NCBI RefSeq assembly: GCF_039539965.1
Contig: NZ_BAABED010000001.1
Location: 1,178,001-1,242,000, forward strand
Source of the DNA: Arthrobacter methylotrophus
Lineage (GTDB): Bacteria; Actinomycetota; Actinomycetes; Actinomycetales; Micrococcaceae
Direction of reading: 5' to 3'
DNA: 64,000 bases
Of this stretch, positions 41,696-57,067 are shown in pieces. Below the pieces are notes generated by a model. The model saw only the letters and a list, made by a program, of their open reading frames with translations. It was not told the origin of the DNA and did no database searches. The number at the start of each line of letters is the position of its first letter. The stretch's first letter is position 1. Both the position numbers and the translations under genes were made by a program.

Positions 41696-41856
41696 CTATC
41701 AAGACTACTTTCCCGGCTGGGCAATCTCACGACGTGACCGTGAAGGGAAGCTGTAAGTAGCATCACCTTTTGACGGCACGGCGTGGTACGGATACCGAGG
41801 GATGAGTCTTTTTGGAGGGTATATGTCGCAGTGACGTAGATCGACTCGAAAAGCTA

Positions 41857-41884
41857 TTGTTGCATCAAGTATGCTGGTTACAAT
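41857..41884 (+). promoter_or_regulatory. Promoter of the polysaccharide operon
   Basis: TTGTTG at 41857-41862, 16-base spacer, TACAAT at 41879-41884, giving a start near 41891 and a leader of about 80 bases before the Pro-rich protein gene. The rest of the 275-base gap after DUF3515 shows no gene. Confidence 0.5.
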
Positions 41885-41970
41885 ATCCATTGACTGGACT
41901 TACCTCCTCTCATGTGGAAAGAGGAACAAGGCAGCGCCGGTGTCGCACCCACCAAAAAGGCGTTGCAGCC

Positions 41971-42687
41971 ATGGGGGCAAATATCTTGAACAAAATGAGA
42001 ATTGCGTTCTGCCTGAAAAGGCTGGGCGCCGCGTTTGCGAGCGCTCTTCTTGCGTGTCTAATGGCGTTGGTACCTTTGCAGGCGGCGTTCGCTGATGGCG
42101 AGACCACTCCGGGTACCGACCCCGGCAACCCACCGCCCGTCGAAGAATCGCCCTCGCCGCCGCCGAGTGTAGATCCGGTGACTCCCACCACGGACCCTGG
42201 GCCGCCTGTTACTGATCCTGTGCCTCCCGTCGTCGAGATACCGCCGATAGTCGTTGTGCCCCCCGTGGCGCCCGCGCCCGGCGACGGTCCCAATTCCGTC
42301 TTTGTGCCCGATCAGGCCTCGGTTCCTTCTGTGCAAGTTTCAAGCGCCCCTTCACAAGCAGGGCCCGTTGATCCTAGGCAACCCGTTCCCAAATCCACTG
42401 CCGATCCGGGGACGGAACTTCAACCGGTCGGACCGGTCGGGACAACTCCGACCCCATCACCCTTACTCTCAAAGTCATCGAGTGCGCCAGCCGCCCCGTC
42501 CCATTCACCCAGCTCTAAGACGCCAGCTGAGCCGGTCAGCGTAGTCAAGGTGGCAGTGGACGCCGCCACCGGAAGTCCGTTCGTGGTCCAGCTCCTGACC
42601 GTGCTGATTCTCTTGGCCGCGGGGTTTGTATACTTCCGTGTTTTGGGCTCCAGGGGAACACGAGCTTCCTCTAAAGCAGTCAAGTAA
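41971..42687 (+). CDS. Secreted, Pro-rich single-pass cell-surface protein
   Basis: 238 residues from the ATG at 41971. An N-terminal signal peptide (FASALLACLMALVPLQAAFA) is followed by about 150 residues rich in Pro, Ser, Thr and Val with repeats such as PPVTDPVPPVV. A C-terminal membrane helix (FVVQLLTVLILLAAGFVYF) and a short basic tail follow. There is no LPxTG sequence. The layout resembles extended wall-spanning anchors whose Pro-rich stalk crosses peptidoglycan. First gene of the polysaccharide cluster, four bases before a glycosyltransferase, so a role at the wall (display, anchoring or spacing of the polymer machinery) is an inference. I recognise no family. Confidence 0.75.
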   Translation: MGANILNKMRIAFCLKRLGAAFASALLACLMALVPLQAAFADGETTPGTDPGNPPPVEESPSPPPSVDPVTPTTDPGPPVTDPVPPVVEIPPIVVVPPVAPAPGDGPNSVFVPDQASVPSVQVSSAPSQAGPVDPRQPVPKSTADPGTELQPVGPVGTTPTPSPLLSKSSSAPAAPSHSPSSKTPAEPVSVVKVAVDAATGSPFVVQLLTVLILLAAGFVYFRVLGSRGTRASSKAVK

Positions 42688-42691
42688 CCGC

Positions 42692-43939
42692 ATGGAAAGC
42701 CCGGAGCATTCCGCGGAGCCCGCACGCCCCAAACCACGTGTTACCGTCCTAACCCATTCATACTGGCCCGAGAGCAGTCCGCCCCAACGCCGATGGAGCG
42801 CGCTGATTGACGAATTCCGCAAATCAGGTTGGGACATTGACGTCGTTACTCCCGTGGCACATTTTCCGGCGGGAAGGCGGGTTCTGCCGGCGTCGACGGC
42901 TGGCCGTTCCTTCCGATCTCAAATCGGACGTCACGGCGAAACGGTCCGCCGCGTGCCTTACTTGCCCCATGGGAATTCGCAACTCGCACGGCTCGTCGAC
43001 CACTGTTATTCCGCATTTTGGACGGTGCCTGCGGCATTGCTTACGCGCAGGCCAGACATCGTAGTTGTCACAGCCCCGAGCCTGCCCATTCTCGGTGCCG
43101 GCTACGTCGTGGCGAAGCTGCGCAAAGTCCCTCTCATTATTGAAATGCGCGACGCTTGGCCGGATTTGGCTCGCGATGCCCGGCTCGTCCAAGGAAAAGT
43201 GAAGAGCCTCTTCGAAGTCATAGTTGATCACGTTCAACGTCGTGCCGACCTTGTCGTGACAGTAACGGACGGATTTGCTGACGTTCTCCGCAGCCGGGGA
43301 ATCCAGAATGTGGCGACGATCTCCAACGGACTGAGCGTCGATTCCGTCCCCGCTTTGCCGCCCCCGCCTGGGAGGCGGGACATTTTCGAGGCTCTCTATT
43401 TGGGCAACCACGGCGAGAGTCAGAACCTGGAGATCGCCATTCGCGCCAGCGCCATTGTGGGCAGTCAGATGCATTTGCACATGGTGGGACATGGAACACG
43501 TAAGCTTGCGCTTCAGAACCTGGCCAAAGAACTAGACGCTCCTGTCACTTTCCATCCTTCCCTGATTGGCCAGGACGTTATGGACCGATATGCCTCCGCG
43601 GATACTTGCATCGTGTCGCTTCGGGACGATTGGAAATCCTTCGAGACGACGGTTCCATCAAAGACATACGAAGTCCTGGCGATCGGGCGGCATATGACGG
43701 CAATCGTCCGCGGGGAGGCTGCACGCATCGTGGCCGAGGCCGAGGCTGGTGACATCGTCCCAAGCCATCCCCAAGCTCTGGCCGCCCTGTGGCAGGAACT
43801 CTCAGGGAACCGTGGCAGGCTCACCCGCTCAGCAGCCAGCCGTGCATGGGTCAAGGAACATGCCGACTATGGAATCCTGTCCGAGCGTTACATGGACTTG
43901 ATCTTGGGCGTCGTCGCCGGATCAATCAGGCGAGCCTGA
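42692..43939 (+). CDS. Glycosyltransferase family 4
   Basis: 415-residue GT-B glycosyltransferase, WbuB-like. The N-terminal domain has VTVLTHSYWPESSPPQRRW, typical of GT4 N-terminal domains, and PLIIEMRDAWPDLA. The C-terminal donor-binding domain has ALYLGNHGESQNLEIAI, FHPSLIGQDVMDRYASADTC and the glutamate segment TTVPSKTYEVLAIGRHM. ATG 42692 is four bases after the previous stop. Its stop overlaps the next GT start by one base, so the operon is translationally coupled. Donor and acceptor sugars cannot be named. Confidence 0.88.
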   Translation: MESPEHSAEPARPKPRVTVLTHSYWPESSPPQRRWSALIDEFRKSGWDIDVVTPVAHFPAGRRVLPASTAGRSFRSQIGRHGETVRRVPYLPHGNSQLARLVDHCYSAFWTVPAALLTRRPDIVVVTAPSLPILGAGYVVAKLRKVPLIIEMRDAWPDLARDARLVQGKVKSLFEVIVDHVQRRADLVVTVTDGFADVLRSRGIQNVATISNGLSVDSVPALPPPPGRRDIFEALYLGNHGESQNLEIAIRASAIVGSQMHLHMVGHGTRKLALQNLAKELDAPVTFHPSLIGQDVMDRYASADTCIVSLRDDWKSFETTVPSKTYEVLAIGRHMTAIVRGEAARIVAEAEAGDIVPSHPQALAALWQELSGNRGRLTRSAASRAWVKEHADYGILSERYMDLILGVVAGSIRRA

Positions 43940-45684
43940 TGGGTTTTATTCGCAACTTTCGACTGGTTATTGGCATCGCGTCGGAGAACATTTCTGATGA
44001 CCCGTTTCATTTCTTGCTCCAGCTCTCCCGGAGACTGCCATCCCGGCTGGTGGGTCGGTTTGCCAGACTCCTGAGTTCGGCCGTCCCAAGGACTTCCACA
44101 ACTGTGCCCGTGGCGCTGGCGGAATTGGTGAGCGGCAACCACACTGGACTCCATCGTCGTCTGCGTCTTGCCTTGAACCGACGGGTGTCGGCCCGCACGG
44201 CAGTCAGGCTGGCCGATCTCGCGCTTATGGCGAACGATCCAGCTCTAGCGGATGAATTCTTGGAAATATCGGACGGGGCACCCGGGCTGCGGGCTGCGCG
44301 TGCCCGCCGTCTTTGGTACGACGGTGCGGTGACGGACGCGGTCGAGGTGCTGGAGGGGGCCAACGAACCCGGAACCGTGTTCGGGGAGAGGCTCGCGGCG
44401 GAGAAGCGGCTCCTCGAAGGATGGGCGCCAGTTCTGCCGGTTTGCCGGGTTGAACCCGTTCCGAACCGCGTCCTGCATTTGCTCACCAATTCGCTGCCAC
44501 ACACCCAGAGTGGTTACGCCCAGCGTTCGCACTCGATCCTCAGATCGCAACAGGATGCGGGCTGGGAGACTCTGGCGGTGACGCGATTAGGTTATCCGGT
44601 CCTCGTCGGCAAGCTCGGAGCACGGGTGTTAGACGAGGTAGACGGCGTGCGGTACACGCGGCTCTTGCCAGCGCGGCTCGCGGCTACCGCCACGGGGCGC
44701 CTTCAGCAACAAGCAGAGGAAACGTTTCGGCGGGCTCTCGAATTCAGGCCGAGCGTGATCCATACCAGTACCCACTACGTCAATGGACTGGTCGCCCGTG
44801 CGGTAGCGGAGTCCTTGGGCATCCCCTGGGTGTATGAAGTGCGCGGTCAGCTGGCCGACACTTGGGCTTCCACCCGAAGCCCCACGGCCCGGGAAAGTGA
44901 GCGATACAGGCTTTTCCAAGATCGCGAGTCCGAGATCATGAGGGCTGCCGATCTGGTGGTGACGTTGGGCCATGCCATGAAAGAGAAAATCGTCGCTGCC
45001 GGTGTACCGGAAGGAAAGATCATCATCGCTCCCAACGCTGTGGGTGGGGACTATCTGCGGGAACCTCTGGGCGTTGGAGAAGCCCGTGCGCAACTCGGGC
45101 TCGACCCAAGTGCGGAGTTCATTGGCACTATCAGCAGCTTGGTGCCATACGAAGGGCTGGACGACCTCATCCTGGCGTTTGCGCTCCTGGCCCCGGTTAG
45201 GCCGAAACTGCACCTCTTGATCGTTGGTGCAGGAGAGTCCCTCCCTTCGCTTCAACAGCTGGCTCGCAGGTCCGGTTTCGGTGGCCGAATAGTCTTCACG
45301 GGCCGCGTGCCCCGAGGCGTTGCCCGGACTTACCACCAAGCCCTGGACGTCTTTGTCGTGCCCCGCAAGGACCTCGAAGTCACTCGTTCCGTCACCCCAC
45401 TGAAGCCAGTTGAAGCCTTGGCAAGTTCGCGTGCAGTCGTGGCCAGCTCGTTGCCGGCATTGGCGGAGATCGTCGACGAGGGTCGAACAGGGCTTCTAGT
45501 GCCGCCGGAAGAGCCTGCCGCGCTTGCGACGGCCTTGGAGACACTTCTTGCAGACGCACAAATGCGCTTATCGATGGGACAGGCCGGCCGAACCCAGGTA
45601 CTGCGAACACGTACGTGGGCCGCCAATGCCGATGCTTGTATTCAGGCTTACGGCAGAATCGAACAGGCAAGGAGATCCAGCTAG
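43939..45684 (+). CDS. Glycosyltransferase family 4 with N-terminal helical extension
   Basis: 581 residues. The first ~170 form a charged, leucine-rich helical region of unknown function (RLRLALNRRVSARTAVRLAD). The rest is a GT-B fold: LLTNSLPHTQSGYAQRSHSI is the acceptor-side start, VYEVRGQLADTW follows, and the donor domain has FIGTISSLVPYEGLDDLILA and the EX7E-like segment VTPLKPVEALASSRAVVAS. Starts at ATG overlapping the previous stop (TGATG). Its own stop overlaps the wzm start. Typical of actinobacterial exopolysaccharide loci. Confidence 0.87.
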   Translation: MGFIRNFRLVIGIASENISDDPFHFLLQLSRRLPSRLVGRFARLLSSAVPRTSTTVPVALAELVSGNHTGLHRRLRLALNRRVSARTAVRLADLALMANDPALADEFLEISDGAPGLRAARARRLWYDGAVTDAVEVLEGANEPGTVFGERLAAEKRLLEGWAPVLPVCRVEPVPNRVLHLLTNSLPHTQSGYAQRSHSILRSQQDAGWETLAVTRLGYPVLVGKLGARVLDEVDGVRYTRLLPARLAATATGRLQQQAEETFRRALEFRPSVIHTSTHYVNGLVARAVAESLGIPWVYEVRGQLADTWASTRSPTARESERYRLFQDRESEIMRAADLVVTLGHAMKEKIVAAGVPEGKIIIAPNAVGGDYLREPLGVGEARAQLGLDPSAEFIGTISSLVPYEGLDDLILAFALLAPVRPKLHLLIVGAGESLPSLQQLARRSGFGGRIVFTGRVPRGVARTYHQALDVFVVPRKDLEVTRSVTPLKPVEALASSRAVVASSLPALAEIVDEGRTGLLVPPEEPAALATALETLLADAQMRLSMGQAGRTQVLRTRTWAANADACIQAYGRIEQARRSS

Positions 45685-46571
45685 TGTCCGCAAAGAAGTC
45701 AAACTTACCGGAACCGGCCGATGTCCGACCGCTCTCCGTTGACATGCGGAGGTTGTCCCGCGTTGGCTCCCGTCCGGGTTTCTTGGATTACCTGGTTCAG
45801 CTCTGGGATTTCCGCCAGTTCATCTTCTACGACGCCAGGGCCAGAGTCCAGAGCGGTACCCGGAGGGACCGCCTCGGTAGTATGTGGCTCCTTCTCAACC
45901 CGGTTCTTAATGGGCTTACCTACTACTTCATTTTCGGCCTGCTTCTGAACACAAGTGGCGGGATTAAGAACTTTGTCGGCTATTTGGTGGTGGGTATCTT
46001 TATCTTCCAGTTCAGCGCTGGGGCCATCACGGCGGGTGCCCGCTCCATCCGTAACGGCAAGTCAGTAGTCCAGGCATTCAACTTCCCGAGGGCGGCTCTC
46101 CCGCTCGGAGCCAACATCCGCGAGCTGCTGGCTGCCGTGCCGCTGGTACTCGCCATGCTTCTCCTGATTGTGGTGATACCTCCCGCTGAAGAGATCACTT
46201 GGCTTTGGTTCTTGGTGGTGCCTGCAGTGCTTTTGCAAGGGCTCTTTAATCTGGGTGTAGGTATGATCCTGGCGCGCATCATCTCGAAAGTGAACGACGT
46301 TACGCATCTGATCCCCTTTGCAATCCGGGCTTGGATGTACGGCTCTGCCGTCTTCTATTCTTATGAGCGCTTCATCTCGCACCCTGTTCTACTCTCGGTG
46401 ATGAAGTTGAATCCGCTATACAACGTCATAGACATCATTCGCAGCTGCGTGCTCTATAACCGTGTACCGTCTTGGGAATCGTGGGCGACTCTTGCGGTCG
46501 TTTCCTTCGCTGCCGTAATGGTTGGCTTCTTCTTTTTCTGGGGTGGTGAAGAGTCGTATGGGCGCGATTGA
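45684..46571 (+). CDS. wzm: Polysaccharide ABC exporter permease
   Basis: 295-residue ABC-2 type permease. An N-terminal cytosolic amphipathic part is followed by about six membrane helices (LNPVLNGLTYYFIFGLLL, FVGYLVVGIFIFQFSAGAI, PLVLAMLLLIVVI, LVVPAVLLQGLFNLGVGMI, ending SFAAVMVGFFFFWGG). This is the Wzm/TagG class that exports undecaprenyl-linked polysaccharide or teichoic acid chains. The GTG start follows AAGGAGATCC. It overlaps the ATPase gene by 14 bases. Confidence 0.9.
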   Translation: MSAKKSNLPEPADVRPLSVDMRRLSRVGSRPGFLDYLVQLWDFRQFIFYDARARVQSGTRRDRLGSMWLLLNPVLNGLTYYFIFGLLLNTSGGIKNFVGYLVVGIFIFQFSAGAITAGARSIRNGKSVVQAFNFPRAALPLGANIRELLAAVPLVLAMLLLIVVIPPAEEITWLWFLVVPAVLLQGLFNLGVGMILARIISKVNDVTHLIPFAIRAWMYGSAVFYSYERFISHPVLLSVMKLNPLYNVIDIIRSCVLYNRVPSWESWATLAVVSFAAVMVGFFFFWGGEESYGRD

Positions 46572-47451
46572 TTACCCGGTCTTCCTCGAAGGCCCTCCCT
46601 GCGTCGTCATCGACAGGGTGCAGATGACCTACCGCGTTGCCTCCTCGGACGATCGGGCAACAGCTTCGCGGCCTGGCCTAAAAGGTGCTCTCCGCAGGGT
46701 CTTGCGGAAGCCGAACATGGTGACGGTCAATGCGTTGAAGGAGATCTCCCTCGTCGTAGAGCGGGGTGAATCCGTTGGCATCATTGGACGTAACGGATCC
46801 GGCAAGAGCACCTTGATGAGGCTTATCAGTGGACAGGAGGCGCCGACGCACGGGGCAGTGTATGCCTCCAGCACACCCATTCTCCTGGGGGTTAACGCCG
46901 CCCTCCAACCCGACCTTTCGGGAGATCAGAACGTGGTGCTCGGCTGTCTGGCCATGGGCATGAACATGGATCAGGTCAACGAACAGTTCGACAAGATTGT
47001 GGAGCTGTCTGGGCTGGATTCGGCGATCTACCTACCCATGAAGTCCTACTCTTCAGGCATGTCTTCCCGCTTGCGCTTTGCCATTGCGGCGGCTGTCAAT
47101 CCAGAAATACTGCTAGTGGATGAAGCGCTCAATACGGGAGATGCCCAATTCGGTAGTCGCAGCAAGGCACGGATGAATGAGCTAAGGGCACAAGCTGGCT
47201 GCGTGTTCATAGTTAGTCACAGTCTGGACACTATTCGGGATATGTGCACCCGCGTTATCTGGTTGGACAAGGGGGATCTGATCATGGACGGACCACCCAT
47301 AGAAACAACGCAGGCCTATCAAGAATTTTCGGTGCATCTTTCCAAGGGAAATAACATGAGCGCCCGCAGAATCAGAGAGGAAGCGCGCTCGAACCTCGTA
47401 GCGACCCGTATCTTGGAACGGGCTAGCGGCCGTCGGACGGAGGGCCGCTGA
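46558..47451 (+). CDS. wzt: Polysaccharide ABC exporter ATP-binding protein
   Basis: 297-residue ATPase of the Wzt/TagH class. An N-terminal extension of some 45 residues before the domain is normal for this group. Walker A is IGRNGSGKSTLM, the signature is YSSGMSSRLRFAIAAA (the degenerate SSGM form typical of Wzt/TagH) and Walker B is EILLVDEALNTGD. About 50 residues follow the H-loop SHSLDTI region, too few for the carbohydrate-binding domain of O9a-type Wzt, so the chain-terminus recognition domain is absent. Start overlaps wzm. Confidence 0.92.
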   Translation: MGAIDYPVFLEGPPCVVIDRVQMTYRVASSDDRATASRPGLKGALRRVLRKPNMVTVNALKEISLVVERGESVGIIGRNGSGKSTLMRLISGQEAPTHGAVYASSTPILLGVNAALQPDLSGDQNVVLGCLAMGMNMDQVNEQFDKIVELSGLDSAIYLPMKSYSSGMSSRLRFAIAAAVNPEILLVDEALNTGDAQFGSRSKARMNELRAQAGCVFIVSHSLDTIRDMCTRVIWLDKGDLIMDGPPIETTQAYQEFSVHLSKGNNMSARRIREEARSNLVATRILERASGRRTEGR

Positions 47452-47452
47452 G

Positions 47453-49336
47453 TTGCTCAAGATTAAGGAATTGCGGACAGCGCTTTGGCACTTTCGCCAC
47501 GGTGGATTGCGTCAGGTGCAAGAGTGGCGGGTCCGTCGTATGGCGGAGGGGCGCGGCCATAAGCCCCCCATGATCGACAAGGGCGACCACAGGGCCCCCT
47601 CGTTCAGGCCTTACCAAATGCCGGGCCTCGCGGCCCGGAGGACAGACCTTACAGTCGGTGTCATCCTTGACGACTTTTCGGCGTCGGCGTTCGCCTTCGA
47701 ATGGAATCTCGTCCTTCTAAGTAAGAAAGAGTGGCGGGAGGAGCTGAAAGAGACAAGGATCGATTTCCTCTTCGTGGAATCTGCATGGAACGGGAACCAC
47801 GGTTCGTGGAAGTACGAGCTGACCGGGACTTCCGGCCCAAAACAAGAGTTTCTAGGGCTTCTTGCGTGGTGCCGCGAGAATTCGATTCCAACAGTTTTCT
47901 GGAACAAGGAGGACCCGCCGCACTACGAAGACTTTCTTCCTGCTGCTCGCCAGTTTGACGTGGTCTTCACCAGCGACTCGGACCGGATCGCGTCCTACAT
48001 CGAAGACCTAGGGCATGATCGCGTCGCCGCACTCCCTTTTGCCGCCCAGCCGGCGATCCACAACCCGATTCGAAACGGAGCGGGACGACATTCTCGGGGG
48101 ACGGCATTCGCTGGAATGTACTTCGCCCACAAGTATCCGGAGCGCCGGCAGCAAATGGACATGCTGCTCAACGCAGCCAGGGATGCCGGCCGCAAGAACG
48201 GTCCGAAGCTCGAGATCTTTTCCCGCCAGCTGGGAGGCGACCCAAACTACCAGTTTCCGTCTCCCTTCAACGAATACGTTGCAGGGAGCCTGGATTACGC
48301 ACGGATGCTCACGGCCTACAGGGCGTACAAGGTGTTCCTTAACGTCAACTCGGTCGTGGATTCGCCGAGCATGTGCGCACGGCGGATCTTTGAGATCACG
48401 GGCTCTGGCACGCCTGTGGTGTCGAGTCCAAGTGCAGCCATCAGACACTTCTTTGAATCCGATGAGGTGCTCGTGGCCAGTTCTCGGGAGCAAGCTGTGC
48501 ATCAGATACGGATGCTTGCCGGTAGTCCTGAATTCAACGACAGGGTAGTCCATAAAGGGCAGCGCCGCATTTGGGCCGAGAACACTTACGCACACCGGGC
48601 GGAAGCCATTGTTTCCGCCGTCCTGGCGGACCGCGTCCAAGCCGTGAAACTACCCAGCGCAAGCGCATTGGTCTGTACCATCCGGCCCGATCAACTCGAA
48701 CACGTGTTTGCAACGATCGGTAGCCAGCTGGGTGTGAACCTCGAGTTGGTTCTCTTGGCACATGGATTCCAAGCCGACCCTGGCTTTCTTTCTTCCTTGG
48801 CCGCAGCGTACGGCGTGATCAATTACAGAGTTTTGTCGGCCCCAGGAGATCTAACCCTTGGTGAGTGCCTGAATCTCTGCGTCGAAGCTGCAACCGGTGA
48901 CGTGCTGACCAAGATGGACGACGACGACTACTACGGACCACATTATCTAGCCGACCTGATGTACGCGCTTCAGTACTCCAACGCGGATGTCGTCGGGAAG
49001 CTCGCTCACTACATGAATTTCTCTTCCAGTCGTGCCACAGTATTGCGGATTCCTCACATGGAACACAGATTCAGCCGATTGGTCATGGGACCGACCATTA
49101 CTGCGCGCCGGGAGGTCTTCGAGGCAAACCCTTTTGAAGCCTTGAACAGAGGAGAAGACACGGCATTTCTCAATTCCGTGGCTAATAGTGGAGGCTCCAT
49201 CTACGCAGCTGACAGGTTCAACTTCTGCCAAATGAGGCAGGGCAGCGGCCACACTTGGGACGTGCCGGACGAAGAACTGGCGGCCTCCGGCGAAATCAAG
49301 TTCTTCGGAGATCCACGTGAACAAATCACGGTATGA
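47453..49336 (+). CDS. Two-domain glycosyltransferase: CgeB-like GT-B plus GT2
   Basis: 627 residues. Residues ~65-400 resemble the CgeB/DUF3880 group: an N-terminal half with IDFLFVESAWNGNHGSWKY and VFWNKEDPPHYEDF, and a donor half with FAGMYFAHKYPERRQQMD, NVNSVVDSPSMCARRIFEI and GSGTPVVSS. Residues ~410-620 form a GT2-like GT-A domain with the metal motif DVLTKMDDDDYYGPHYL and RGEDTAFL. TTG start two bases after the wzt stop. Two catalytic domains in one chain would suit polymerisation of a two-sugar repeat or two successive linkages. Sugar specificity is not readable. Confidence 0.85.
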   Translation: MLKIKELRTALWHFRHGGLRQVQEWRVRRMAEGRGHKPPMIDKGDHRAPSFRPYQMPGLAARRTDLTVGVILDDFSASAFAFEWNLVLLSKKEWREELKETRIDFLFVESAWNGNHGSWKYELTGTSGPKQEFLGLLAWCRENSIPTVFWNKEDPPHYEDFLPAARQFDVVFTSDSDRIASYIEDLGHDRVAALPFAAQPAIHNPIRNGAGRHSRGTAFAGMYFAHKYPERRQQMDMLLNAARDAGRKNGPKLEIFSRQLGGDPNYQFPSPFNEYVAGSLDYARMLTAYRAYKVFLNVNSVVDSPSMCARRIFEITGSGTPVVSSPSAAIRHFFESDEVLVASSREQAVHQIRMLAGSPEFNDRVVHKGQRRIWAENTYAHRAEAIVSAVLADRVQAVKLPSASALVCTIRPDQLEHVFATIGSQLGVNLELVLLAHGFQADPGFLSSLAAAYGVINYRVLSAPGDLTLGECLNLCVEAATGDVLTKMDDDDYYGPHYLADLMYALQYSNADVVGKLAHYMNFSSSRATVLRIPHMEHRFSRLVMGPTITARREVFEANPFEALNRGEDTAFLNSVANSGGSIYAADRFNFCQMRQGSGHTWDVPDEELAASGEIKFFGDPREQITV

Positions 49337-49352
49337 AAAAAGGGGACAGAAA

Positions 49353-50606
49353 TTGACATCCATCGAGAATGTCGCAGTTATAGGTTTGGGCTACATAGGA
49401 TTGCCCACGGCTTCGATTCTTGCAACGAACGGCCTCAACGTCATTGGTGTTGACGTTGACCAGCGCACTGTCGATGCCGTAAACCGAGGGGAGGTGACTT
49501 TCGTTGAACCCGACCTTGCCGTACAGGTCGCTGGCGCCGTAAGCCAGGGGCGTCTCAAGGCCACCACCGATACACCTGCAGCGCAGGCCTACATCGTTGC
49601 CGTTCCTACCCCATTCAGGGATGACCATTCGGCTGATCTAAGCTACATCGAGGCGGCCGCCAGTGGCATTGCGCCACAGCTTCAGGGTGGCGAATTGATC
49701 ATTCTGGAGTCAACATCACCGCCTCGAGCAACCCGGCATATGGCCGAATACATTCTTGGTCTTCGCCCCGACCTGTCAATCGACGGCGCCGGGGATACAT
49801 CAGTGATTCATTTTGCTCACTGTCCGGAGCGCGTGCTTCCGGGCCGGGTCATGATCGAGCTAGTGACCAACGACAGGATTGTCGGCGGGATGACCCCGGA
49901 GGCTGCTGCTATGGCCAAGGAACTCTATGCGGTCTTCTGCCAAGGTGAAATCCTCGTCACCGACGACGTTACGGCCGAAATGGCCAAGCTTGTTGAGAAC
50001 TCTTACCGAGATGTCAACATCGCATTCGCCAACGAGTTGTCAGTCATTAGCGATAAAATCGGTATCAACGTCTGGGAGCTTATTAAGCTCGCGAACCATC
50101 ACCCGCGAGTGAACATCCTCCAGCCGGGTCCGGGCGTGGGCGGCCACTGCATTGCGGTGGATCCGTGGTTCATCGTCGCTGCTGCGCCTGAGGAATCAAG
50201 ACTCATCCGCACCGCACGGGAGGTCAATGACGCCAAGCCACGGTGGGTCATCGACAAGGTCCATGATGCCGTCGCTGGTCTTCCAGCCGACGCTGAGATT
50301 GCGCTTCTAGGTCTCTCATTCAAAGCCAACATTGACGACTTGCGAGAGTCTCCTGCCATCGAGATTGCCGCACGGTTGGCCGATGAACTTGGGGGGCGCA
50401 GGATCAATATTTCCGAGCCGCATGTTGAATCGCTTCCCGATTCGCTCGCCGGCTTTGGCAATTGCAAGCTTCGGAGTCTGGAAGATGCGTTATATCGTTC
50501 GACGATCGTCGTTTTGCTCGTGGACCACGATTCATTTCGTGAGGTACGCCCCATCCAACTGGAAGCCAAGTTTCTGATTGACACGCGAGGTGTGTTGAAG
50601 GCATGA
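49353..50606 (+). CDS. wecC: UDP-N-acetyl-D-mannosamine dehydrogenase
   Basis: Nucleotide-sugar 6-dehydrogenase oxidising UDP-ManNAc to UDP-ManNAcA with two NAD+. 417 residues from a TTG preceded by AAGGGG. The N-terminal Rossmann motif is VAVIGLGYIGLPTASILA, the substrate segment is ESTSPPRATRHM, and the catalytic cysteine is in GPGVGGHCIAVDPWF. ESTSPP with HCPERVLPGR is the WecC pattern as opposed to UDP-glucose dehydrogenase. Its partner epimerase wecB is encoded 4 kb downstream on the other strand. Overlaps the next gene by four bases (ATGA). Confidence 0.93.
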   Translation: MTSIENVAVIGLGYIGLPTASILATNGLNVIGVDVDQRTVDAVNRGEVTFVEPDLAVQVAGAVSQGRLKATTDTPAAQAYIVAVPTPFRDDHSADLSYIEAAASGIAPQLQGGELIILESTSPPRATRHMAEYILGLRPDLSIDGAGDTSVIHFAHCPERVLPGRVMIELVTNDRIVGGMTPEAAAMAKELYAVFCQGEILVTDDVTAEMAKLVENSYRDVNIAFANELSVISDKIGINVWELIKLANHHPRVNILQPGPGVGGHCIAVDPWFIVAAAPEESRLIRTAREVNDAKPRWVIDKVHDAVAGLPADAEIALLGLSFKANIDDLRESPAIEIAARLADELGGRRINISEPHVESLPDSLAGFGNCKLRSLEDALYRSTIVVLLVDHDSFREVRPIQLEAKFLIDTRGVLKA

Positions 50607-51394
50607 AACCACTTCCTGTTGACTCCGGATTCCTGCCTGTTTCCATGAACTTTGGGTCTGGTGAGGAGTTTCCACACTTTACTGAAAGCGGTGTCATCTG
50701 TAGTCCAGAAGATGACGTAGCCGCGTTAAAGGATATTCCGGGGATCTTGCATATCGTTCATTCAATGGCTGATTTCCATGCTCTTTCGGAGGAGTGCCAG
50801 AGCAATCTAGTTGTTTTAGCGGGCGGAGAGAGTCTACTAAGGCTGTTAGCTGCACAATCCGGACTCAAAGCGGATACTACAATATTTTGGCTTATACATA
50901 AGAGGTTCATCGACACTTGGCACGCCATTTCGAGCATAAATTTGCCACAAAGATCGGCCATTACAGCATTCATTAGCCGATTCGAATCAAGTTGGATCGT
51001 TATCGATTATTCTGAATATTACTTGGATAATACGTCCTTCTATAATGGGTATATTGCTGGACTCAAATTCTCCGATTCAATACCACAATCCGAAAACACT
51101 AAAGCCGTAGGTTCGGAGATTGAACTCAGTAAGCTGAAGCAGAAGCACGTAAACCTACTGGAGACGCTCGGGAGCCTGGACCTCTCCCTCCCCAGGGCGG
51201 GCGTTGTGAGCACCGAGGAAACTTTGCTCACAACGCGGCTAGAAAATGAGCTAATTCTCCTAAAGCGAAAACATGATGCTTTACAGAGGAAATATATCGC
51301 GCTTTCCAATTCAAAATTGGGAAAACTAACACTTAGTATGTGGGGCCGTAAGAGGGCCAAGGCAGCGATGAAGACTGATCTCAGGGACAAATAG
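50603..51394 (+). CDS. Hypothetical protein of the polysaccharide locus
   Basis: 263 residues, no family recognised. No signal peptide or membrane helix. Residues ~25-170 look like a compact alpha/beta domain with hydrophobic strands (GILHIVHSMADF, NLVVLAGGESLL, TIFWLIHKRF). Residues ~185-240 are strongly charged and heptad-like (ELSKLKQKHVNLLETLG, LENELILLKRKHDALQRKY), probably a coiled coil. The tail LSNSKLGKLTLSMWGRKR resembles basic tails seen at the ends of some polysaccharide glycosyltransferases (inference). Start overlaps wecC. The gene is visibly more AT-rich than the core genes, suggesting transfer. Confidence 0.75.
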   Translation: MKPLPVDSGFLPVSMNFGSGEEFPHFTESGVICSPEDDVAALKDIPGILHIVHSMADFHALSEECQSNLVVLAGGESLLRLLAAQSGLKADTTIFWLIHKRFIDTWHAISSINLPQRSAITAFISRFESSWIVIDYSEYYLDNTSFYNGYIAGLKFSDSIPQSENTKAVGSEIELSKLKQKHVNLLETLGSLDLSLPRAGVVSTEETLLTTRLENELILLKRKHDALQRKYIALSNSKLGKLTLSMWGRKRAKAAMKTDLRDK

Positions 51395-51474
51395 ACCATG
51401 AAAGAAACTACAATCCCCGGCGCCGGGAAAATGACGAATACGGTTCTCGGATAGTCCAGGATCCTGGACTTCGA

Positions 51475-53631
51475 GTGCGGGAAATCGCTGCTGTCCATGG
51501 TCTTGGAACACCAGGACTCATCACGGAGGTAGCCGCGACGGCCCCACTCTATGGCGTTAGTGTTATCGTTCCATCCTTCATGGGTAGCGACCGCATAGCC
51601 GAATGCTTAGATTCTTTGGAGGCTCAGGATCTTGACCCAAAGTCATTTGAAGTGATCGTCGTTATGAATGGGCCCGATGACGGCACCATTGACGTTGCGC
51701 GACGATTCTCGCAGCGCTTTCCCCTCGGCCATTTGCGACTAATCAAGCAGTCTCTTGCAAGTGCCGGGGCTGCCCGCAATTTTGGACTGGCCTTGGCCCG
51801 TTTCTCATTCGTCACGATGGTGGACGACGACGATCGAGTAGGGAGGCGCTTCCTGTCGTCGATGTTGAAGGTGGCAGGCCCTGGGCAAGTCGCAATCGCC
51901 CCGATCATCGACGTGCATCCGGACGGAACTTGGGATCGGAACAACGCTCTTAATAAGAAGATATTTGCTCGGGCAGGCAAACCATTCGTCTTCTCCTCGG
52001 CGAGTGACCTCATTGGATTTAACGCGTGCAAGCTAATCCCTGCCGCCGGAGTGAAGGATATTAGCTATTCTGAATCGCTTCGCAGCGGTGAGGACATCTG
52101 TTTCATGGCCGAAGTAGCGGTACTAAACAGTTTTACGGCGCAAGTCGGATCGTTGGACGAGGAGGCTGCATATTTTAGAGTGCTCCGAAACGACTCGATT
52201 TCAAGGAAGCCTCTTGACTTCGACTTCGCTGTCGCGCAACGACTGGCGGTCATAGAGAAGTTAGAGGAGTGTCGTAGTTGGGACAGCGGAGCTAAGGATT
52301 CCACACTCAAGACTTTGGTCAACGCGCAAGCAAATTTTCTTCGACGATACCTGGACTTGTTTCCGGAGGAACGCGACCGAGTGGTTGAAGCGATTGATGC
52401 TTCGGCAATCAAGGATTTTCCCTGGCCCCGAATCAATGACGGGTATGCGAAAGACCTTGCGATCAGCTACTGCTTTTCCCCGTTTGCTGATACGAGCGCC
52501 GTAATCGCAGCCAAAACAATTGCCGAACGCTCCAAAATCGTGGATGTGATTTCAAATGACATGAGTGCTGTGCGGAAGCTCGATAGTAATATTGAAACAA
52601 TCGCTGCCCGATTCATTGATAAAATGTTTGTCGTAGACGCGCCGGTTTCCTTCGCCGGATGGGATCAAATTTCCGAATTCGTTAGCCGTGGAATAGCAGT
52701 TGCTGATCGCCAAGATGCACTCAACGGCGGATACGAGACCATGTACAGTCGAGTTCTATGGGCCGGCTCGCATTTTCTGGGCGCGATGTTCAAGGTTCGG
52801 CACCCTGCAGTTATTTGGAGCGCCGAATTTTCCGATCCTTTAAGCTTTGATTCCCAAGGACTTCCGCGGGCGGGCGACTTGAAGCGAGACGGGCTGTTTG
52901 AAGTTTTGGACCGTGCGGTTCGGTCGAAAGGCTATTCCGGACCCAACTCGGATAACCTCTTCGTGTGGTGTGAGTATATCTCCTATGTCCTGGCAGATGA
53001 ACTCATATTTACCAATGAGAACCAACTGGAATACATGCTGTCCAAGGTTGATGAACCAAAATTGCAGAACGCAATCAGATCAAAAGCTGTAGTCCGGGTC
53101 CATCCGACTCCACCCGCAAGAAGTTACGGAGTGGTTCCCTCAGAATATTCCCTGTCGGGGTCTGTTGTGAATATTGGATATTTTGGTGCGTTCTACGAAA
53201 ATCGGGGTCTTTTCGAGGTCTTAACCGCCCTTATGAATGCTCCGCTCGACATACGTCGCGGACTTCGGCTTCATGTGTTTACTAACAAACCCGAATTCGT
53301 TGAGAAGCAGGCACTAAGCATGGGTCTCACAGGAATCGTTAAAACACAGAGCTACCGGCCGTACTTAGAATTCCTGAATCTCGCAACGCGGTTCGATGTT
53401 TTGCTGGTCAACGACGTCGAGAGAGCTGGTGAGCTCGCGATCAATCCGTTCCTGCCTTCAAAGTATTCGGACTACAAGGGGTCAGGTGTGGCGATCTGGG
53501 GCCTGGTTGATGGCGGAAGTGCCCTCAGTAGGGAACCGTTGCGCTTCAAATCCGGTGTAGGCAACGGGCCGGAGGCATTGGTGATTCTTGGCGAAATATT
53601 CCGGACGTATCGTCGAGATCGGGGGAATTAG
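51475..53631 (+). CDS. Two-domain glycosyltransferase: GT2 plus GT-B-like domain
   Basis: 718 residues. The N-terminal GT2 (GT-A) domain begins VSVIVPSFMGSDRIAECLDS and has the DXD-type motif VTMVDDDDRVG and SGEDICFMAEVAVLNS. The C-terminal ~350 residues look like a GT-B fold: FVVDAPVSFAG, VRHPAVIWSAEFSDPLSF (acceptor side) and VVNIGYFGAFYENRGLFEVL, LRLHVFTNKPEF, FLPSKYSDYKGSGVAIWGLV (donor side). The domain order is the reverse of the earlier two-domain enzyme in this operon. GTG start without a strong ribosome binding site. AT-rich relative to the core. Last plus-strand gene of the locus, ending 15 bases from the convergent operon. Confidence 0.82.
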   Translation: MREIAAVHGLGTPGLITEVAATAPLYGVSVIVPSFMGSDRIAECLDSLEAQDLDPKSFEVIVVMNGPDDGTIDVARRFSQRFPLGHLRLIKQSLASAGAARNFGLALARFSFVTMVDDDDRVGRRFLSSMLKVAGPGQVAIAPIIDVHPDGTWDRNNALNKKIFARAGKPFVFSSASDLIGFNACKLIPAAGVKDISYSESLRSGEDICFMAEVAVLNSFTAQVGSLDEEAAYFRVLRNDSISRKPLDFDFAVAQRLAVIEKLEECRSWDSGAKDSTLKTLVNAQANFLRRYLDLFPEERDRVVEAIDASAIKDFPWPRINDGYAKDLAISYCFSPFADTSAVIAAKTIAERSKIVDVISNDMSAVRKLDSNIETIAARFIDKMFVVDAPVSFAGWDQISEFVSRGIAVADRQDALNGGYETMYSRVLWAGSHFLGAMFKVRHPAVIWSAEFSDPLSFDSQGLPRAGDLKRDGLFEVLDRAVRSKGYSGPNSDNLFVWCEYISYVLADELIFTNENQLEYMLSKVDEPKLQNAIRSKAVVRVHPTPPARSYGVVPSEYSLSGSVVNIGYFGAFYENRGLFEVLTALMNAPLDIRRGLRLHVFTNKPEFVEKQALSMGLTGIVKTQSYRPYLEFLNLATRFDVLLVNDVERAGELAINPFLPSKYSDYKGSGVAIWGLVDGGSALSREPLRFKSGVGNGPEALVILGEIFRTYRRDRGN

Positions 53632-53646
53632 GAGGCTAATTGGCTT

Positions 53647-54813
53647 CTAATATTCTCGTGGCCGGTAATGTCTACTTAGGTTACTAGCACCTACCGGCGG
53701 CCATGGTATTTCATGGACCTCGTCGGAATTCAGCGCTGTAAAGTATATATCGGCCAGTATTCCCGCGAAGGTCGCTGTCTTCCGGAACAGTGTTGTTACT
53801 GCGGTTCTGCCCGGGTTCACGGCAAGCCGGGGACGAAAGGCGTTAATCCCCGAGGAGGCGATGTTTGCGTCAAGTTGTTCAAATCTTGTGCGTAGGAATT
53901 TTTGGCCAGTGACCGTGTGGGACATCCGTGAGAAGGCCAGAGGGATTTCCCACACGTTGGACCAATCCCTTGACCACGTAGGCGCTTCCGAGTCATCGTT
54001 GGGTCCAATTGGCAGCTGGAAGCACACGGTATCTAGCGCGCGAGCCAGAAGGGAACGCCATTCACGAGCCCGGAAAGGGGGTAGGACTTCGCAGATCGGC
54101 ATTCCAAATCCTACAATAGTTGCCTGATAGGCAACGCTAGCTCCAGTGGTCGGCATTCCATCCCAATCTTCGCTGTAGGGCCACCAACCGGGACGCCATG
54201 CACCAAATCGTCGTTCGACGTGGTCCACGATCTCTATGACTTGTTTGAGAAATTCCTCCGTCCCGGTGAGCTGGTAAGCCCGCGATAGGGTGTTGGCGGC
54301 GTAGATGTCTCCGTTGAGGATGTCCACGTGTCTGGCTTGTGCGTTCTTGTAGATGGCCCCTTTATTTTCCACCGCCACTTGCGTCAGCAAATATTCGGCC
54401 GCCGCGTTGAGTGACTCTTTGGCGCACTCTAGATCAAGACTCAGACTAAGGTTAAACAGGGCCGTTGCCGATGCGCCGATTTCGGCGATGTCCCGAAGAC
54501 CTTGGCTTCCGATGGCCTGGTTGTAATTACTTGAGAAGGATCCATCCGAATTCTGACGCCTCCGAACATCTTCGGCCAACAATGTAGCGGTGGCGGCGCC
54601 TTGCCCACCATTGATGGAACGGTCCAGTGCGAGGAACGCAGCGACCTGACTTTGGGTGCAGCATGTCGCGGGTAGATGTGTTTCGGGATCAACGATGGTG
54701 AATGTCTGGGACGCGTTGGTCCTTGGAAGTATTGATTCGAAATACGGGAGCAAAGTATTAGTCAGTCGCCTTAGACGCTCCTTGCTCATGATGGAATTTG
54801 TGAATCCGTCCAA
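53647..54813 (-). CDS. Unknown protein, predicted alpha/alpha-toroid fold
   Basis: 388 residues with no signal peptide or membrane helix. The sequence is mostly amphipathic helices with repeated aromatic/Gly segments (SQVAAFLALDRSINGGQGAA, EDVRRRQNSDGSFSSNYNQA, WWPYSEDWDGMPTTGASVAY), reminiscent of alpha/alpha-barrel enzymes such as glycoside hydrolases, polysaccharide lyases, C5-epimerases or terpene-cyclase-like toroids. Acidic and aromatic residues in WPYSEDWDGMP and WSRDWSNVWEIPLAF could line a sugar-binding cleft. TTG start with AGGAG nine bases upstream. Last gene after wecB on the minus strand, so a role in processing or modifying the ManNAcA polymer or its precursor is plausible. The family is not identified. 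Confidence 0.75.
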   Translation of the reverse strand: MDGFTNSIMSKERLRRLTNTLLPYFESILPRTNASQTFTIVDPETHLPATCCTQSQVAAFLALDRSINGGQGAATATLLAEDVRRRQNSDGSFSSNYNQAIGSQGLRDIAEIGASATALFNLSLSLDLECAKESLNAAAEYLLTQVAVENKGAIYKNAQARHVDILNGDIYAANTLSRAYQLTGTEEFLKQVIEIVDHVERRFGAWRPGWWPYSEDWDGMPTTGASVAYQATIVGFGMPICEVLPPFRAREWRSLLARALDTVCFQLPIGPNDDSEAPTWSRDWSNVWEIPLAFSRMSHTVTGQKFLRTRFEQLDANIASSGINAFRPRLAVNPGRTAVTTLFRKTATFAGILADIYFTALNSDEVHEIPWPPVGASNLSRHYRPREY

Positions 54814-54868
54814 GCCGTCTTACTCCTGTTCTATTTGGACGATGGTTGCTTCCGCGGGCTCAGGGGAC

Positions 54869-56008
54869 TTACGAAAAACTATCGATTCGCATGCCAACCC
54901 CCAACAACTGCGCCACCGCTGCGACTGTCCGCTCTGCCGCCCTGCCGTCGCCATAGGGGTTCACGGCGTTGGCCATGCCATCAAAATGATCCGGCTCGTT
55001 CAACAGACGGTCCACTTCCTTGACGATTCGGTCCTCGCTTGTACCTATCAACCGAACAGTACCGGCATGGACCGCCTCCGGGCGTTCTGTGTTGTCGCGC
55101 ATGACGAGCACAGGCTTCCCCAGGCTGGGGGCTTCCTCCTGGACTCCGCCCGAATCCGTCAGGACGATGTGCGCCAAGGACAGCATTCGGGTGAACTCGC
55201 CATAGGCCAGAGGCTCGGTGACAATGACGTTACTCTTTCCGTCAAGTGCAGGGAGGACGGCCTCGCGGACCACAGGGTTCTTGTGGGCTGGCAGGACGAT
55301 CACCAATTCCGGCTCAGCGTCGGCGATCCGGGCCAAGGCGCGTCCGACTCCACGCATTGCATCACCCTGGTTTTCACGGCGGTGGGTTGTGACCAAAAGG
55401 ATCCGGCGTCCACTTGTGGCCAGTTCTTCCAGCTGGGGATCCGAGAAGGCAATGTTCTTGCCCACGGTGGTAAGCAAAGCGTCGATCACGGTATTACCGG
55501 TGACGACGATGTCGTCCTCGGGGATTCCCTCGGCGAGCAAATTCGCTTTGCTGATACTGGTGGGGGCAAGGTGCAGGCTGGAGATCTGACTGGTGATCTT
55601 CCGGTTTGCTTCCTCAGGGAAAGGGGAAAACAGATCTCCGCTACGCAATCCGGCTTCAACATGTACCACGGGGATTCCGTGGTAAAAGGCCGCGATGGCA
55701 CCTGCGGTGGACGTTGTCGTATCTCCTTGGACGATGACGGCATCCGGCCTGTTGGCTGAAAAGAGTTTGTCCAAGCCATCGATAGTCCGGGTCATGATGG
55801 CCGAAAGAGACTGACGCTGCTGCAAAATGTTCAAGTCGTGGTCCGGGACGATACCGAAGAGTTCGTTGACCTGGTCCAGCATTTCGCGATGCTGACCGGT
55901 GACAGTAACAATGCAGTCGAAATCAGCAGACTTCTGCAGTGCAGTGATGATGGGAGCCATCTTGATGGCTTCCGGGCGCGTGCCAAAGACGGGCATGACG
56001 CTGCGCAT
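54869..56008 (-). CDS. wecB: UDP-N-acetylglucosamine 2-epimerase (non-hydrolysing)
   Basis: Interconverts UDP-GlcNAc and UDP-ManNAc, supplying wecC. 379 residues from the ATG at 56008, preceded by GGGGG. Family signatures are VFGTRPEAIKMAPII, VTVTGQHREMLDQV, VIVQGDTTTSTAGAIAAFY, VHVEAGLRSGD, PEEANRKITSQISSLHLAPT, TTHRRENQGDAM and LTDSGGVQEEAPSLGKPVLVMR, which include the UDP-binding His/Arg/Glu and catalytic residues. The mature length and motif set match the bacterial WecB/MnaA enzyme. Belongs to a four-gene minus-strand unit. Confidence 0.95.
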   Translation of the reverse strand: MRSVMPVFGTRPEAIKMAPIITALQKSADFDCIVTVTGQHREMLDQVNELFGIVPDHDLNILQQRQSLSAIMTRTIDGLDKLFSANRPDAVIVQGDTTTSTAGAIAAFYHGIPVVHVEAGLRSGDLFSPFPEEANRKITSQISSLHLAPTSISKANLLAEGIPEDDIVVTGNTVIDALLTTVGKNIAFSDPQLEELATSGRRILLVTTHRRENQGDAMRGVGRALARIADAEPELVIVLPAHKNPVVREAVLPALDGKSNVIVTEPLAYGEFTRMLSLAHIVLTDSGGVQEEAPSLGKPVLVMRDNTERPEAVHAGTVRLIGTSEDRIVKEVDRLLNEPDHFDGMANAVNPYGDGRAAERTVAAVAQLLGVGMRIDSFS

Positions 56009-56092
56009 TATTTCCCCCAAGGAATAGCAAAAGGCTGACCTTCAATGCTATCCCACAGTCAATCGAGGTGATGAATTGTTGCGGGGGGCGAC

Positions 56093-56338
56093 TCAACCAA
56101 TAACAATCAGCGCGACAACCAGTGTGGGGATAGATAGCGCGACCAATATGACGATTCCAAGTGCCACGAGTTTCTTTCGGAAGTGCCGAATTTCCCCAGG
56201 CAGCCTAGAGGTGTCGATACTCGCAACCGATCCGCCTCCCGGCAGCTGCCAGTCGCGGATCTCCCCGAGGACCGGACGCGTGCGCAGGTGTCGGGGAGCG
56301 GGCTGCAGATTCGCTACGGGAAGGACAGACTCGCTCAC
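56093..56338 (-). CDS. Small single-pass membrane protein
   Basis: 81 residues from a GTG with a strong GAGGAGG just upstream. The first ~50 residues are hydrophilic with several Pro and Arg (RHLRTRPVLGEIRDW). The last ~25 form one hydrophobic helix (LVALGIVILVALSIPTLVVA) ending at the C-terminus, so it is probably tail-anchored. No family recognised. It lies between the YdcF-like gene and wecB on the same strand, so it may be an accessory or regulatory subunit of the surface-polymer machinery, but that is guesswork. Confidence 0.65.
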   Translation of the reverse strand: MSESVLPVANLQPAPRHLRTRPVLGEIRDWQLPGGGSVASIDTSRLPGEIRHFRKKLVALGIVILVALSIPTLVVALIVIG

Positions 56339-56402
56339 GGTTCCCTCCTCAACGGGTTGATGCGGACCAGCATCCATGATTCAGGCCTATTCTTGCATTC
56401 GT

Positions 56403-56975
56403 CTATCTTGAATCGCATTCCGGGCGCAGTAGAGCATCCAACAGCCCGCCCGTCTCGATGGCGAAGCGCCTCAACCATTGACCGGCGCTCAGTTCCGGAT
56501 CGGAGGCAAACATTTGGACGTCCGCCGTCGTGCACTGACTTATCAATGTGCCCGCTCTGATCTGGTGGTAGCGCGATGTTACAACTGTGACGGAACCCCA
56601 ACCCTTTTCAGCCACTAGCTTCCCAATGGCGCGTGCTTCGCCGCGCGTGTCATTTTCGTCCAAGGTGAGGCAGACAAGGGAAGGGTCAGGTCTCGGTAAG
56701 GTGTTACAGAGTTCGTCGGCGCTGACGTTTCCAGGGGTACCTGTATGTGAGACGGCCAGCACCGGAATTCCCAAGTCGCTTTTCAGTTTCTCCGCCACGG
56801 GAAGCCTTTCGGAGCTGGCTCCCCCCAGCATGATCACGGCATCTGTACGGTGTGGGGTGTTCACCGGCACATTGAAGAACAGTTGGAATGCCACGATCAG
56901 CCAGGCCACAAACGCAATAGATCCTGCGACGACGAGCCGGCGTGCAATCATCACGGCTACTGCGGAATTAGGCAC
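56403..56975 (-). CDS. YdcF/ElyC-like (DUF218) membrane protein
   Basis: 190 residues. One N-terminal membrane helix (LVVAGSIAFVAWLIVAFQLFF), then an extracytoplasmic DUF218 domain: TDAVIMLGGASSERLPVAEK, the motif LDENDTRGEARAIGKLVAEKG and VTVVTSRYHQIRAGTLI are the family blocks. Members such as ElyC and SanA act in cell-envelope homeostasis and undecaprenyl-carrier metabolism, which fits a polysaccharide locus, though the biochemical activity is not established. GTG start at 56975. First gene of the minus-strand wecB operon, divergent from thiL. Confidence 0.86.
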   Translation of the reverse strand: MPNSAVAVMIARRLVVAGSIAFVAWLIVAFQLFFNVPVNTPHRTDAVIMLGGASSERLPVAEKLKSDLGIPVLAVSHTGTPGNVSADELCNTLPRPDPSLVCLTLDENDTRGEARAIGKLVAEKGWGSVTVVTSRYHQIRAGTLISQCTTADVQMFASDPELSAGQWLRRFAIETGGLLDALLRPECDSR

Positions 56976-57055
56976 GCCATCCAGTCTGGCATGAGTCCAA
57001 CAAATAGAAGAAAGCCGAAGAACCGTCCAGATGCTTTAATGTCGGCCCGAGCCGA

Positions 57056-57061
57056 TAGCGT
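57056..57061 (+). promoter_or_regulatory. -10 element of thiL, leaderless type
   Basis: TAGCGT ends six bases before the GTG start at 57068, and no ribosome binding site is present. No TPP riboswitch-like sequence is seen. Confidence 0.45.
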
Positions 57062-57067
57062 AGAGCT

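Follow-up and report, generated by a model that had tools for sequence, protein, structure and literature searches.

A predicted wall-glycopolymer locus with fixed arms and a largely exchangeable middle at the DUF3515-thiL site of Arthrobacter

We describe a polysaccharide locus lying between a DUF3515 gene and thiL in a 64,000-nucleotide stretch of Arthrobacter methylotrophus DNA (hereafter the window; G000:C1:1178001-1242000, from a 5.08-Mb genome). With a probability of about 0.7, it is a wall-glycopolymer locus at a conserved exchange site: WecB and WecC would provide N-acetylmannosaminuronic acid (ManNAcA) for a chain exported by a TagG/TagH-like pair and linked by LCP enzymes, with the locus itself exchanged by recombination through its flanks. 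The product, judging from the gene set, is most likely a ManNAcA-containing, teichuronic-like polymer. The locus is ordinary in kind, and an unusually clear wall-glycopolymer exchange locus: it consists of fixed arms with a largely exchangeable middle, and its place in the chromosome is a shared address with repeated absence and exchange, not the site of a single insertion.

The original prediction, made from the letters of the window, held that about 15 kb separate DUF3515 from thiL, filled with glycosyltransferases, an ABC exporter, wecB, wecC and several unknowns and not flanked by any transposase or integrase. All of this was borne out. Pfam assignments of the window products place 15.4 kb (41,696-57,067) between gpsA-ddl-DUF3515, a block that ends at 41,695, and thiL-DAK2-recG-rsmD, which begins with thiL at 57,068; Pfam and NCBIfam recover the named functions inside, and neither transposase nor integrase families occur among the insert products scanned. 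The insert has a GC fraction of 0.563, against 0.632 in the left flank and 0.649 in the right, with a per-kilobase minimum of 0.51 at 50-54 kb of the window. Its plus-strand genes run in the order proline-rich protein, GT4a, GT4b, ABC-2 permease, ABC ATPase, a GT1_2 and GT2 protein that we presume to be CgeB-like, wecC, a 263-aa orphan and a large GT2; tor388, wecB, a 94-aa protein gene and DUF218 are on the minus strand. Open reading frame (ORF) starts are the longest possible in the following list, and several ORFs overlap.

36811-38136: EPSP-synthase family gene (Pfam)
38148-38924: acyltransferase gene (Pfam)
38921-39973: gpsA (Pfam)
39976-41157: ddl (Pfam)
41180-41695, minus strand: DUF3515 lipoprotein-like gene, left boundary (Pfam PF12028)
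41812-42687, plus strand: proline-rich protein with C-terminal transmembrane-like segment, first left-arm gene (no Pfam match); its final ~50 residues are 49-65% identical in related loci (22 shown of 32 tblastn hits)
42626-43939, plus strand: GT4a, GT4 glycosyltransferase, left arm (Pfam, alignment, 80 named loci; maximal ORF, true start probably downstream)
43789-45684, plus strand: GT4b, GT4 glycosyltransferase with N-terminal extension, left arm (Pfam, related loci; maximal ORF)
45615-46571, plus strand: ABC-2 permease, TagG/Wzm-like (PF01061, genome survey)
46522-47451, plus strand: ABC ATPase, TagH/Wzt-like (PF00005)
47453-49336, plus strand: presumed CgeB-like GT1_2 + GT2 glycosyltransferase, left arm (Pfam)
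49317-50606, plus strand: wecC, UDP-ManNAc dehydrogenase, end of left arm (NCBIfam PRK11064 equivalog, 582 bits against a cut-off of 459); its GVGGHC stretch aligns to Cap5O
50603-51394, plus strand: orphan 263-aa protein, first gene of the variable middle (a protein search returned itself only)
51475-53631, plus strand: large GT2 glycosyltransferase, variable middle (PF00535)
53647-54813, minus strand: tor388, (alpha/alpha)6-barrel protein by predicted structure, variable middle (no Pfam match)
54869-56020, minus strand: wecB, non-hydrolysing UDP-GlcNAc 2-epimerase, right arm (TIGR00236, 470.5 bits against a cut-off of 210; PDB 1vgv)
56093-56377, minus strand: small 94-aa protein, right arm (no Pfam match; 36-38% identical relatives in G010 and G014)
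56403-56975, minus strand: DUF218 protein, right arm (PF02698, 27.8 bits against 27.6)
57053-57067: right junction, where homology with G012 and G022 resumes 15 bp before thiL (blastn)
57068-58081, plus strand: thiL, right core boundary (AIRS-family Pfam)
58071-59144: DAK2 (Pfam)
59059-61413: RecG (Pfam)
61465-62031: RsmD-type gene (Pfam Cons_hypoth95)

Two sets of relatives define the arms. In all of nine islands the left arm GT4a-GT4b-TagG-TagH-CgeB/GT2-wecC is recognisable together with wecB, and DUF218 in eight; it was not found in G032, where wecB adjoins thiL. The middle varies among the nine. G005 and G027 have the greater part of their middles in common, with genes for pyruvyltransferase, FAD and GSCFA proteins (assigned by Pfam in G005), and G010 and G014 share some, namely a nucleotidyltransferase and a 601-aa protein; G010 also encodes three TagF-type (PF04464) proteins, two of them fused to a glycosyltransferase. 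The position held by tor388 in the window, after the large GT2, is taken in G062 by a gene for a C5-epim_C protein and in G059 by several genes, one of which encodes a hexapeptide acetyltransferase. Four of the nine islands have an LCP relative close to their left end (G005, G010, where it falls between ddl and DUF3515, G023 and G034), identified by a Pfam run on the G005 copy and by 54-91% identity in the others. The second set came from a GT4a profile run against a collection of species genomes: of 221 matching stretches 168 encode a relative, the top 80 of which form our named loci, from Arthrobacter, Pseudarthrobacter, Paenarthrobacter, Tersicoccus, Kocuria and other Micrococcaceae, plus one record titled Sporosarcina. 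LCP relatives occur in 47 of the 80, and a TagF-type match in seven, within the 10 kb fetched rightward. Relatives of the orphan and of the large GT2 occur as neighbours in L073, L078, L080, L083 and L139, the orphan relatives being 26-33% identical; large GT2 relatives are 54-62% identical in these five and in L102 and L114.

We note two peculiar loci: (i) G010 has a second CgeB-GT2 and wecC pair between DUF218 and thiL (L055:5966-8988), giving two partial left arms. (ii) The record titled Sporosarcina beigongshangi (L103) has a locus of Arthrobacter type that includes DUF3515 and LCP, and is possibly mislabelled or contaminated.

The proposed route to the product follows from these gene families. 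WecB and WecC, both equivalogs over their cut-offs, would at the family level make UDP-ManNAc and UDP-ManNAcA, the UDP-sugar uronate synthesis of a teichuronic-acid type locus. The left-arm glycosyltransferases may then build a ManNAcA-containing chain on a lipid carrier, to which the variable middle (here GT2, orphan and barrel protein) would add strain-specific sugars or modifications. The permease and ATPase, over the Pfam cut-offs for PF01061 and PF00005, have the family membership of an ABC-2 polysaccharide exporter pair and would export the chain. Linkage to peptidoglycan may fall to LCP enzymes, whose genes lie close to the left end in several sister loci and, outside the locus, in the window's own genome (three PF03816 proteins; LCP enzymes in general are treated in PMC7831098). 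Two PF00953 proteins are also encoded elsewhere in this genome. As wecB and wecC are arm genes also in loci with a TagF-type middle, ManNAcA probably sits in a shared inner or linker part, with the middle setting the outer repeat. The whole locus would be gained, lost and swapped by recombination in flanking core genes, with no integrase.

Distances between ddl and thiL, from match coordinates, were compared in 59 genomes: 37 of the GTDB genus, counting that of the window, and 22 of other Micrococcales families. thiL gave a single strong match in 57 of the 59, its role in this neighbourhood being confirmed only where checked. Outside the family the gap is ~71-1962 bp in all 17 scorable genomes (of the other five, two had no thiL match, two were split over contigs and one was rearranged). 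Within the genus, 25 genomes have a short gap of 0.6-1.0 kb (G030, one of these, has broken gene matches), five have gaps of 1.9-4.0 kb with other cargo, and seven have the window-type locus: G000, G005, G010, G014, G019, G027 and G032, two of them split over contigs. The other cargo is a metalloprotease-like gene with Pfam matches under cut-off in G022 (3.6 kb), an LCP relative as sole insert in G024, unknown genes in G025 and G029, and dTDP-rhamnose genes in G031. The two genomes nearest to that of the window, G012 (gap of 0.64 kb) and G022, both lack the locus at this address. Exporter relatives of at least 52% identity occur in nine of the 37, namely the seven address carriers and G023 and G034, whose locus lies elsewhere. 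G008 and G033 have wecB-DUF218 beside AsnC-bkd and lack a related exporter, which looks like a remnant of the locus.

Among the named loci, DUF3515 is on the same locus in 44 of 80, including those of Arthrobacter gallicola, luteolus and koreensis, and L122 was also assigned to the ddl-thiL address, by coordinates. GT4a lies between wecB and thiL in four, three of which have LCP. The remainder comprise 11 elsewhere on the chromosome, 12 from Kocuria, two from Tersicoccus and six unplaced by rule; of these six, L100 has its other left-arm genes beside DUF3515 in the same genome, and L087 is a contig of G014. The claim of an insertion into a conserved core array thus stands in part: the short gap outside the family and the absence in G012 and G022 fit it, but this was no one-off, since the arms occupy the same address in seven of 37 genus genomes and 44 named loci. 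The proposed search for strains with DUF3515 close to thiL found them in the 25 short-gap genomes, and the pattern named as contrary, the same genes in the same place in all related genera, was seen in part only.

A second address lies between phenylacetate genes (paa, enoyl-CoA hydratase) and AsnC-bkd. The 11 genomes of the elsewhere group (G059-G069) all lack the locus at the ddl-thiL address; the gap there is 0.65-0.79 kb in ten and 3.8 kb, with a metalloprotease-like gene, in one. Six Kocuria and two Tersicoccus genomes that were checked have a gap of 0.7-2.1 kb, and therefore the locus lies elsewhere in those genomes. Two insertion points are used at the second address: in G059, G061 and G062 the locus is on the paa side of a 461-aa gene, and in G023 on the opposite side. 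DUF218 adjoins AsnC in G023 and G034. The second-address label was assigned from one or both flanks for L073, L077, L083, L104, L110, L111, L112, L113 and G023, from two genes left of GT4a for L106 and L109, and from the short first-address gap alone for L074. In the window genome, no arm gene occurs within the 18.4 kb fetched at the AsnC-bkd end.

Two further genes recur around these addresses. The metalloprotease-like gene occupies the DUF3515-thiL site of G022 and G061 without a polysaccharide locus, and stands beside the locus in G010 and G019 (L033:2721-5408; L055:9250-11817; L214:2441-5029). At the second address, G023 and G034 (L068/L069 and L070/L071) have two diverged copies of a 546-aa protein near both locus ends, a family with a sub-threshold DUF4434 match.

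The left junction was located within DUF3515. Up to ~41,612-41,643 the window is mostly 0.80-0.95 alike to G012 and G022 per 100 columns (0.63-0.72 in the ddl-DUF3515 spacer); beyond this its likeness to them falls from 0.84 to 0.40-0.45, while in the same columns the likeness between G012 and G022 remains 0.85. Blastn matches to the two genomes end at 41612 and 41643 on the left and resume at 57,053 on the right. On these alignments, the stretch that appears foreign relative to G012 and G022 includes the DUF3515 signal-peptide codons (from ~41612-41643 to 41695), as would be expected had the donor carried its locus at this address too. Among the other fetched DUF3515 sequences, compared by eye, none has a like signal peptide, and so no donor is named. 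Elsewhere, we take two thiL duplications to reflect recombination within that gene. G076 (Arthrobacter sp. Bz4; L226:1344-4048) has two copies, a full-length one adjoining wecB and one adjoining DAK2 that is truncated and interrupted by stop codons in frame; the stretch that separates them has a GC fraction of 0.48 and contains a glycosyltransferase-like ORF. In G115 (L224:128-9514) an ion-channel gene and thiL pieces are directly repeated (96% and 83%), flanking GT2, tor388 and a C5-epim_C protein. Exchange of the locus by recombination through its flanks is the most likely mechanism.

Trees of the arms and of the core disagree. The arm tree was built from six arm genes in 27 rows hand-picked from 83; the G010 row, which in a four-gene tree may mix two gene copies, was excluded. 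It unites the window and 11 other-address loci in one branch at 100/100, makes the window sister to L073, L074, L077 and L083, loci of other species, at 100/100, and requires two changes of address. Topology tests, whose groups were defined once the first tree was known, rejected placing the 11 other-address loci together without the window (p 8e-50) and pairing the window with SW1 on arm genes (p 0.002). In the core tree, from locus-flanking genes in 45 rows, the window groups with G012, then G022, then SW1 (supports 0.669, 1.0 and 0.891), and the species with the closest arm genes are distant. Because the two trees conflict, the sequences favour horizontal exchange of the locus. A simple move back of the window's locus from the second address was considered, and is weakened by the two different insertion points there, with which an ancestral first address is at least as cheap: that address plus two moves away costs the same as, or less than, a return.

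This count also speaks for the principal rival, in which the locus is ancestral at the first address and vertically inherited, was lost in G012 and G022, and was never inserted in the window strain. Retention with these losses is a serious possibility, if a somewhat less probable one. Loci occur at this address throughout Arthrobacter sensu lato, and several further points weigh against exchange: SW1, the core sister of the window's clade, has its locus at the same address; the pairing of the window with G012 has a support of only 0.669; and the core tree was built on the genes next to the locus, which could be subject to recombination too. Vertical inheritance fits poorly with the rejected sisterhood of SW1 and the window on arm genes, with nearest arm genes that come from species distant in the core tree, and with a DUF3515 5' end that differs from the matching 5' ends of the two nearest genomes. 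An island mobilised by an integrase or transposase of its own would also explain the low GC and the presence and absence between close genomes, and G254 has two rve-type (IS-like) integrase genes ~4 kb from tor388 (L223:2022-4524); yet no such family is found among the window insert products scanned (the other islands were not scanned gene by gene), blastn finds no repeats of at least 30 bp in window positions 38900-59200, and no tRNA gene lies at the ends, the nearest found being at 32.6-32.9 kb, so that we regard an integrative mobile element as very improbable. Nor does a plasmid-borne exporter fit, with matches on 61 of 72,556 plasmid records, all below 60% identity and the best listed at 36.7%.

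The assignment to the wall, as opposed to a capsule or exopolysaccharide not bound to peptidoglycan, was weighed separately. GT4/GT2 sets and Wzm/Wzt-like exporters serve capsules too, and some sub-threshold NCBIfam matches are to exopolysaccharide proteins. The wall reading also has to accommodate TagG and TagH scores under the NCBIfam cut-offs, the lack of an LCP gene in the window locus, the presence of LCP in only 23 of 45 named loci assigned to the ddl-thiL address, and a polymer that is predicted here from its genes. What makes a capsule or exopolysaccharide unlikely is the LCP genes near the left end of four of the nine islands, the TagF-type proteins in others, and the ATPase, whose best NCBIfam matches, though under cut-off, are teichoic-acid export ATPases.

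Capsule and O-antigen loci have fixed ends and an exchangeable middle, and are replaced via flanking homology. The present locus shares the fixed ends and exchangeable middle and, probably, this mode of replacement; it differs in belonging to a Gram-positive wall and in having relatives at another address. Wall teichoic acid (WTA) assembly by TagGH, TagF and LCP resembles it in exporter type and through the LCP and TagF-type proteins of sister loci, but the window locus has no TagF-type (PF04464) match among the products scanned, and its TagG and TagH fall below the NCBIfam cut-offs. The teichuronic acid (TUA) of the related bacterium Micrococcus luteus is described as a wall polymer with a ManNAcA-Glc repeat (PMC3005890); the likeness to the window's predicted polymer is in the sugar, ManNAcA. 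Streptomyces TUA loci (utr genes) are described as hypervariable, and TUA as an umbrella-toxin receptor (PMC13274773). As presented there, they too combine core genes with a highly variable remainder, include a UDP-sugar dehydrogenase and a 2-epimerase, differ between close species and are absent from some. Unlike our locus, S. griseus TUA uses 2,3-diacetamido-2,3-dideoxymannuronic acid (ManNAc3NAcA) and is attached to WTA, and the passages of that paper on horizontal transfer and genomic location give no change of chromosomal address; the window-type arms differ in carrying a TagGH-like exporter and wecB/wecC. Searches of open-licence papers brought up no account of a wall-polymer locus in Arthrobacter.

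The tor388 protein of the middle belongs to a family of 44 listed proteins, the window's own included, for which Pfam has no model. Its predicted structure (predicted local distance difference test score 90.3) is an (alpha/alpha)6-barrel, the fold of the AGE/cellobiose 2-epimerase superfamily, and the model matches cellobiose 2-epimerase, GH76 and GH88 folds. One histidine, H198, is invariant among 42 rows of the family; we take the superfamily hallmark to be a catalytic histidine pair. Against PDB sequences there were two matches (E 0.3-0.41), to unrelated proteins, which look like chance. The predicted fold alone would leave the reaction unsettled. In a bolder extension, which we hold to be doubtful, the arms would make a common ManNAcA inner chain, the middle (TagF-type, C5-epimerase-like, acetyltransferase or tor388) would set its finish, and swapping and address change would amount to serotype switching against phages or lectin-guided toxins; the C5-epimerase-like protein could then convert ManNAcA into N-acetyl-L-gulosaminuronic acid (L-GulNAcA), and tor388 may be the first of an unnamed sugar-modifying family common to Arthrobacter relatives and Paenibacillus.

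The locus mapped here, with its fixed frame and exchangeable slots, is a candidate wall-polymer locus for Arthrobacter and its allies; it marks a recombination site within the core genome, and it brings up a barrel family that has no Pfam model and whose activity is open to assay. Wall polymer type could become predictable from genomes, and testable as a phage or toxin receptor, a role for which Streptomyces TUA, as described in PMC13274773, offers a precedent for toxins.

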